From a virus, in IMG/VR virus record IMGVR_UViG_3300020468_000052, positions 1 through 28,733 of that record: a stretch of DNA of 28,733 nt. One strand, written 5' to 3'. The notes under the pieces are model-generated. The model was not told where the DNA came from, did not search any database, and worked only from the letters and a program-made list of their open reading frames with translations. Positions 21,554-23,139 of this stretch are shown piece after piece. Position numbers and translations under genes: made by a program. The number at the start of each line of letters is the position of its first letter. Position 1 is the stretch's first letter.

Positions 21554-21630
21554 TGGCCTGCTCGGGAGGATTCGAACCTCCGACCTTTGGTTCCGCAAAC
21601 CAATGTTCTATCCAACTGAACTACGAGCAG
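21554..21630 (-). tRNA. tRNA-Arg (anticodon GCG)
   Basis: A 77-nt cloverleaf folds on the minus strand: acceptor CTGCTCG/CGAGCAG, D-stem GTTC/GAAC, anticodon stem TTGGT/ACCAA with loop TTGCGGA, T-arm GGAGG-TTCGAAT-CCTCC, discriminator G and encoded CCA. Anticodon GCG reads CGC and CGU (Arg). Most bacteria read these with ACG (inosine), so GCG is less usual. A promoter lies just upstream. Confidence 0.92.
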
Positions 21631-22968: not shown

Positions 22969-23062
22969 TGGTGGTCCCGCCAGGATTCGAACCTGGATCG
23001 CTCTCTAATCTGGAGACTATGCCGAATATAAACCGGGTGTTTTACCTTTAAACTACGGGACC
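22969..23062 (-). tRNA. Atypical 94-nt tRNA, best read as Ile (anticodon UAU)
   Basis: The minus-strand fold has acceptor GGTCCCG/CGGGACC, D-stem GTTT/AAAC with a short loop, T-arm CCAGG-TTCGAAT-CCTGG, discriminator A and encoded CCA. The anticodon arm is CCCGG-TTTATAT-TCGGC: four pairs with a C-C mismatch at the base, T33, and A37, giving anticodon TAT for the AUA codon. The variable region is 24 nt and can form a small hairpin (TCTC/GAGA), as in class II tRNAs (Leu, Ser, Tyr), which is unexpected for Ile. Identity and activity are therefore uncertain. The alternative loop CAGATTA lacks T33. It lies 2 nt from tRNA-Thr. Confidence 0.65.
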
Positions 23063-23064
23063 AG

Positions 23065-23139
23065 TGGTGCTGGAGGAGGGAATCGAACCCCCAACCTACT
23101 GATTACAAATCAGTTGCTCTACCGTTGAGCCACTCCAGC
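23065..23139 (-). tRNA. tRNA-Thr (anticodon UGU)
   Basis: A 75-nt cloverleaf: acceptor GCTGGAG/CTCCAGC, D-stem GCTC/GAGC, anticodon stem ACTGA/TCAGT with loop TTTGTAA (anticodon TGT, reads ACA), T-arm GGGGG-TTCGATT-CCCTC with one G-T pair, discriminator A, encoded CCA. Its first 21 nt overlap the end of the SH3-barrel gene, so the message must be cut to release it. Confidence 0.94.

Follow-up and report, generated by a model that had tools for sequence, protein, structure and literature searches.

The tRNA gene and its surroundings

The window analysed here is an IMG/VR virus fragment in its full length (28,733 bases). It encodes among others a ClpP-type protease, 2OG-Fe(II) oxygenases, UvdE, PTPS, a HesB-type protein and a DNA ligase, a gene content that suggests a T4-like marine phage as its source. 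ARAGORN reported a tRNA-Ile(TAT) on the minus strand (Table 1), in exact agreement in span and anticodon with the 94-nt Ile-UAU tRNA proposed in a sequence-only reading of the same DNA. The gene was assigned to the tRNA family by the Rfam covariance model RF00005 with 57.6 bits (cut-off 29, E = 3.6e-10). All pairs of the acceptor (7/7), D (4/4) and T (5/5) arms are formed, and A73 and an encoded CCA are present, as is the T33 (U33) and A37 context of the anticodon. The 24-nt variable region noted earlier, with its TCTC/GAGA hairpin, was recovered as a 21-nt insertion relative to RF00005 in the Rfam alignment and in the minimum-energy fold, which consists of the cloverleaf plus this hairpin with a 7-nt loop (z -1.95). 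The C-C mismatch at the base of the anticodon stem (C27.C43) is real as well and is a trait of the family, in which 14 of the 29 rows with letters at this place have no standard pair.

Table 1. Features of the two-armed tRNA gene and its neighbour (window coordinates)
Feature	Position	Strand	Basis
Two-arm tRNA-Ile gene (UAU + GAU), 94 nt including encoded CCA	22969..23062	-	ARAGORN, Rfam, alignment
First anticodon arm (putative decoding arm), loop UUUAUAU, C27.C43 mismatch at base	23021..23037	-	Sequence; covariation (helix 3)
Anticodon UAU (34-36), between U33 and A37	23028..23030	-	ARAGORN; family U33 114/114 (U33 part of the search pattern), A37 113/114
Second, anticodon-like arm: 4-bp stem TCTC/GAGA and 7-nt loop CAGAUUA	23002..23016	-	Fold; helix 4 covariation, double changes in all 4 pairs
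GAU in the second loop, at the places that correspond to 34-36 (the ordinary tRNA-Ile anticodon)	23008..23010	-	47/51 viral clusters and 10/10 bacterial members, collected without regard to the loop
In the GAU arm, G of the pair that corresponds to 29-41 (partner C at 23015)	23003..23003	-	C-G in 84% of 76 clusters
5-nt linker GCGAU from GAU arm to T stem; class I variable loop length	22997..23001	-	5-6 nt in 105/114
T arm	22980..22996	-	Covariation (helix 5)
Discriminator A73	22972..22972	-	A73 in 74/76 clusters
Ordinary tRNA-Thr(UGU), directly upstream neighbour	23065..23139	-	ARAGORN, Rfam; present in relatives without the UAU gene

A conserved GAU arm in the variable region

For comparison, IMG/VR was searched with a permissive pattern for UAU tRNAs whose variable region is long, which returned at least 120 matches and gives no estimate of frequency; from the ARAGORN calls on the matched loci, 114 distinct class II UAU tRNA sequences were parsed. 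From this viral scan, which was blind to the variable-arm loop, 51 clusters (90% identity) of such tRNAs were obtained. A 7-nt loop with GAU at the equivalents of positions 34 to 36, placed on a short stem, was found in 47 of these, while a GAU-centred loop was missing in the remaining four. Of the 47 clusters, 46 have A at position 33 and 39 have C/A at positions 32/38, as in an anticodon loop. All ten tRNA members obtained in a blind bacterial search carry GAU too, with loops including CCGAUUA, UAGAUCA and UGGAUCG. An exclusion of U33 from the second loop, suggested by the 47 blind clusters, was disproved by dedicated scans, in which GAU arms with U, G or C at position 33 were also found; this position can be any of A, U, C and G, while GAU is kept.

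All five helices covary over 36 relatives, with 94.4% of the cells paired and a covariation score of 0.78 versus 0.21 in shuffled alignments, so the gene is no pseudogene. The stem of the GAU arm varies freely with compensation, and compensatory changes were seen in each of its four pairs. CAGAUUA, the loop of the window copy, makes up 110 of 193 GAU loops, most of which have A33 and U37. The exact tRNA-Ile loop CUGAUAA occurs in eight members, two of which (L497 and L558) add AGGUC before the T stem; among the class I Ile-GAU tRNAs encoded at these loci, CUGAUAA is the commonest anticodon loop (50/100) and AGGUC the commonest variable loop. Tied to the second arm is the anticodon of the first: a CAGAUUA arm selected without regard to the anticodon gave tRNA-like matches that read UAU in 115 of 115 cases, some of these loci having first been fetched by the UAU pattern, and no other anticodon was found beside a CAGAUUA arm among these 115.

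Where ordinary class II tRNAs occur at these loci, their variable-arm loops mostly have 4 nt. The linker from the variable arm to the T stem measures 5 to 6 nt in 105 of 114 two-armed tRNAs versus 1 to 2 nt in most Ser/Leu tRNAs. Taken together, the class I-length linker and the 7-nt GAU loop indicate that the GAU hairpin sits where a class I tRNA has its anticodon arm, and that the UAU arm resembles an insertion between positions 26 and 27.

At ten loci, phage tRNAs with anticodons for Asn, Thr, Lys, Gln, Glu, Pro, Cys, Trp and Gly were also seen to have a class II-like variable arm, in many cases closed by a tetraloop (e.g. GAAA). An extension of the two-arm scheme to these other anticodons was rejected, no 7-nt loop with the cognate anticodon being present among those listed.

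Family and distribution

The window tRNA belongs to a large, previously undescribed family present on hundreds of phage contigs and in a few bacteria. An exact 25-mer of the gene had no match in IMG/VR, and near full-length relatives of the 94 nt (74 to 80% identity, blastn) were found only in Lactobacillus Herelleviridae. Two body types were distinguished. In type 1, to which the window copy belongs, the D arm is normal. In type 2, which was seen in the cultured cyanophages S-SKS1 and S-SRM01, the D arm comprises 4 bp and a 4-nt loop, and the UAU stem is 7 bp long. The two-armed tRNA lacks an annotation in the database entries for S-SRM01 (L383, 3001-3088), S-SKS1 (L384, 2997-3085), LpeD (L125, 3000-3091) and Lpa804 (L382, 378-468). 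Most family members begin with a G1:U72 wobble pair (40/76 clusters; 14/15 in type 2).

Bacterial carriers are rare and comprise many Ruegeria and other Rhodobacteraceae, tRNA arrays of Pyrinomonadaceae, and Nostoc; searches blind to the loop gave tRNA matches in 4 of 394, 5 of 396 and 1 of 386 genomes. The Pyrinomonadaceae (Acidobacteriota) arrays, seen at seven loci, in some cases hold many isoacceptors, including tRNA-Ile(GAU) as well as the two-armed UAU tRNA. In Ruegeria (L288 and 12 further loci), a lone copy lies in a block of approximately 250 to 350 bp that is conserved across species in partly differing surroundings, and R. profundi has two copies (L320 and L326). A plasmid search returned partial matches only, of which the one in Deinococcus is a tRNA-Lys within a tRNA array. 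TilS is encoded in 21 of 22 bacterial carriers, so that the tRNA is an extra there and not a replacement, and the idea of carriers that lack TilS and depend on the two-armed tRNA was rejected on the same count.

Isoleucine identity elements

In E. coli tRNA-Ile, the anticodon and the discriminator are strong determinants for isoleucyl-tRNA synthetase (IleRS), with C4-G69 and C29-G41 among the minor ones (PMC9976931). The triplet G34-A35-U36 in an anticodon-type loop is provided by the second arm, the first one having UAU. C29-G41, compared after this pair had been seen to be conserved, is present in 84% of the GAU arms (76 clusters), 30% of the UAU arms, 43% of the class I Ile-GAU tRNAs and 11% of all other tRNAs of these loci. 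The discriminator is A73 in 74 of 76 clusters. C4-G69 is only moderately kept (40/76 clusters, 53%, including the window copy). As read from its sequence and the alignment, the window copy has A73, C4-G69 and U12-A23, plus C29-G41 within the GAU arm. The E. coli identity set also includes A37 (as t6A37) and A38 next to the anticodon; at these places the GAU loop has mostly U37, with A38. The UAU arm, on the other hand, keeps what decoding requires, with A37 in 113 of 114 sequences and U33 in 114 of 114, the latter count not being independent of the search pattern.

AUA usage and gene context

AUA accounts for 226 of the 572 Ile codons in the window (39.5%). At the AUA sites of ClpP, Ile stands in 70% of the cells over about 80 relatives, which indicates that AUA means isoleucine; the AUA sites in the ligase and UvdE are too divergent to inform. 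The closest relatives, L389 and L390 (identity approximately 85% at the DNA level), share the flanks and the tRNA-Thr but lack the UAU gene, so the gene is gained or lost as a whole. Since AUA use in close relatives without the gene is only slightly lower (0.39 to 0.40 versus 0.45), no strong codon argument follows from it.

For Arg, bacteria normally use an ACG anticodon, which is deaminated by TadA. Most bacteria are listed as lacking the GCG anticodon (PMC8007984). A tRNA-Arg(GCG), which would likewise spare the phage a modification enzyme of the host, lies at positions 21554 to 21630 of the window (minus strand) and was also seen in L389, L390, L392 and L402.

A proposed division of labour between the two arms

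Bacterial IleRS normally accepts unmodified UAU poorly. In prokaryotes, AUA is normally read via lysidine or agmatidine, and UAU is generally avoided and described as a lost anticodon (PMC8007984; PMC8450103), a gap in which a two-armed tRNA would remove the need for lysidine. The second arm would imitate the anticodon arm of tRNA-Ile(GAU) by its 7-nt loop with G34-A35-U36, Y32/R38, C29-G41 and the class I-length linker; host IleRS would recognise and charge the molecule through this arm, and the preceding arm, with UAU, U33 and A37, would read AUA on the ribosome. Under the D stem, the GAU arm would probably stand in for the anticodon arm, with the UAU arm moved to the side, the simplest picture being an arm exchange. 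In this way the phage would gain a tRNA for AUA that does not depend on lysidine made by TilS of the host.

As the GAU arm keeps what IleRS reads and the UAU arm keeps the decoding features, we infer charging via the former and AUA decoding by the latter, with lysidine bypassed, and put the probability of this at about two in three. The computed observations that bear on it are the anatomy, the covariation, the near-invariant GAU, the exclusive link to UAU and the retained determinants, while charging by IleRS, the way in which the molecule would present its GAU arm and the independence of TilS are deduced from them. The wider claim, that this is a new tRNA architecture with charging and decoding split between a synthetase arm and a ribosome arm and AUA read without lysidine, is held to be likely as well, if a little less firmly. 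The suggestion in the sequence-only reading that the tRNA serves AUA without TilS fits this evidence; what it took for a class II-like arm is a conserved GAU hairpin of the anticodon type.

Some observations count against the divided roles. The GAU loop mostly has U37 in place of the A37 determinant of E. coli IleRS, and an inserted arm of 17 nt would have to fit into the enzyme. Class I, one-armed UAU tRNAs occur in phages (107 ARAGORN calls), and one- and two-armed UAU tRNAs were seen on the same contig in L028 and L245; the second arm is thus not always needed, or the hosts differ. Among 80 loci fetched by ClpP alone, only two UAU tRNAs were found, a small number, and both are two-armed. 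In the Lactobacillus phages, GAU is lost in two of five (GAC in 3-521, GAA in Semele) and kept in ENFP1, LpeD and Lpa804. IleRS of lactic acid bacteria is reported to recognise UAU, according to a reference quoted in PMC9976931, and the loss of GAU in these phages would, on five phages only, weakly suit a relaxed need for the second arm where IleRS accepts UAU.

Alternative explanations

The occurrence of hairpin-free class I UAU tRNAs in phages would also suit an ordinary AUA-reading tRNA-Ile charged via UAU by a tolerant IleRS, with the hairpin serving RNA stability, protein binding, or protection from or bait for tRNA-cleaving defences. A protein-binding loop could be conserved too, and in one publication tRNA array units are termed a putative antidefence system. 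What is conserved, however, is exactly GAU, while position 33 varies, together with C29-G41, and both are features of tRNA-Ile; a general role in stability or as bait also leaves the strict coupling to UAU unexplained. This explanation is considered unlikely.

Decidedly improbable is a class II tRNA charged by LeuRS or SerRS, with AUA misread as Leu or Ser, as proposed in vitro for the nematode nev-tRNA-Ile(UAU). The class II shape, UAU and A73 match the LeuRS-charged nematode nev-tRNAs (PMC4300185), and A15-U48 is present in 24 of 34 type 1 clusters. The 7-nt GAU loop and the linker of 5 to 6 nt are unlike those of phage Ser/Leu tRNAs, though, and with AUA at 39.5% of the Ile codons and mostly Ile at conserved AUA sites, such misreading would scramble the phage proteome; the conserved GAU would also be left unexplained.

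Slightly less credible still is a dual decoder, in which AUU and AUC are read on the ribosome by the GAU arm as well, so that one tRNA serves all three Ile codons. Some GAU loops do have U33 and A37 (CUGAUAA), yet most have A33/U37 (110/193 are CAGAUUA), which is poor for decoding, and it is the UAU arm that has U33/A37 almost without exception.

A decaying or neutral copy, as the C27.C43 mismatch and the lack of the gene at the same site in L389 and L390 might suggest, is very hard to reconcile with covariation in all helices, an intact CCA, family-wide conservation and the recurrence of such mismatches as a family trait, and the earlier proposal of a decaying or re-purposed tRNA is contradicted by the same covariation and intact elements.

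Comparison with known tRNAs

No description of such two-armed tRNAs was found in the literature searched in full text, a coverage outside which most subscription papers lie. The tRNA-Ile is a known kind of molecule, and a categorically new mechanism would rest on the charging deduced above. If this reading is true, the widespread tRNA would be a second natural answer to prokaryotic AUA decoding, with the synthetase determinant and the decoding triplet on separate arms; it would break the rule of one anticodon per tRNA and suggest a design for tRNAs with a changeable anticodon and charging retained.

With the class II Ser, Leu and Tyr tRNAs, the two-armed tRNA shares a long hairpin between the anticodon and T arms. 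These have short loops without GAU and, in Ser/Leu, a 3' linker of 1 to 2 nt, whereas the window tRNA has a 5-nt linker and the anticodon UAU, and thus lacks both the linker and the cognate anticodon that define Ser/Leu membership. The nematode nev-tRNA-Ile(UAU) likewise combines UAU with a long variable arm (PMC4300185), but it is eukaryotic and leucine-charged in vitro, and no GAU arm is mentioned in the available part of that source. The class I tRNA-Ile3(UAU) of Mycoplasma, Bifidobacterium and Lactobacillus also has UAU for AUA, with a short variable loop in contrast to the 24-nt variable region in the window. The lysidine-modified tRNA-Ile2(CAU) of the TilS pathway equally decodes AUA as Ile; the two-armed tRNA differs in its extra arm and in having UAU instead of CAU, and hence no lysidine site. 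The closest parallel to the second arm is bacterial tRNA-Ile(GAU), with which the two-armed tRNA shares a 7-nt loop with GAU, which in some members is CUGAUAA, the pair C29-G41, in many members also C4-G69, A73 and the linker length, and from which it differs by the UAU arm added between positions 26 and 27 and by a GAU loop that usually has A33 and U37.
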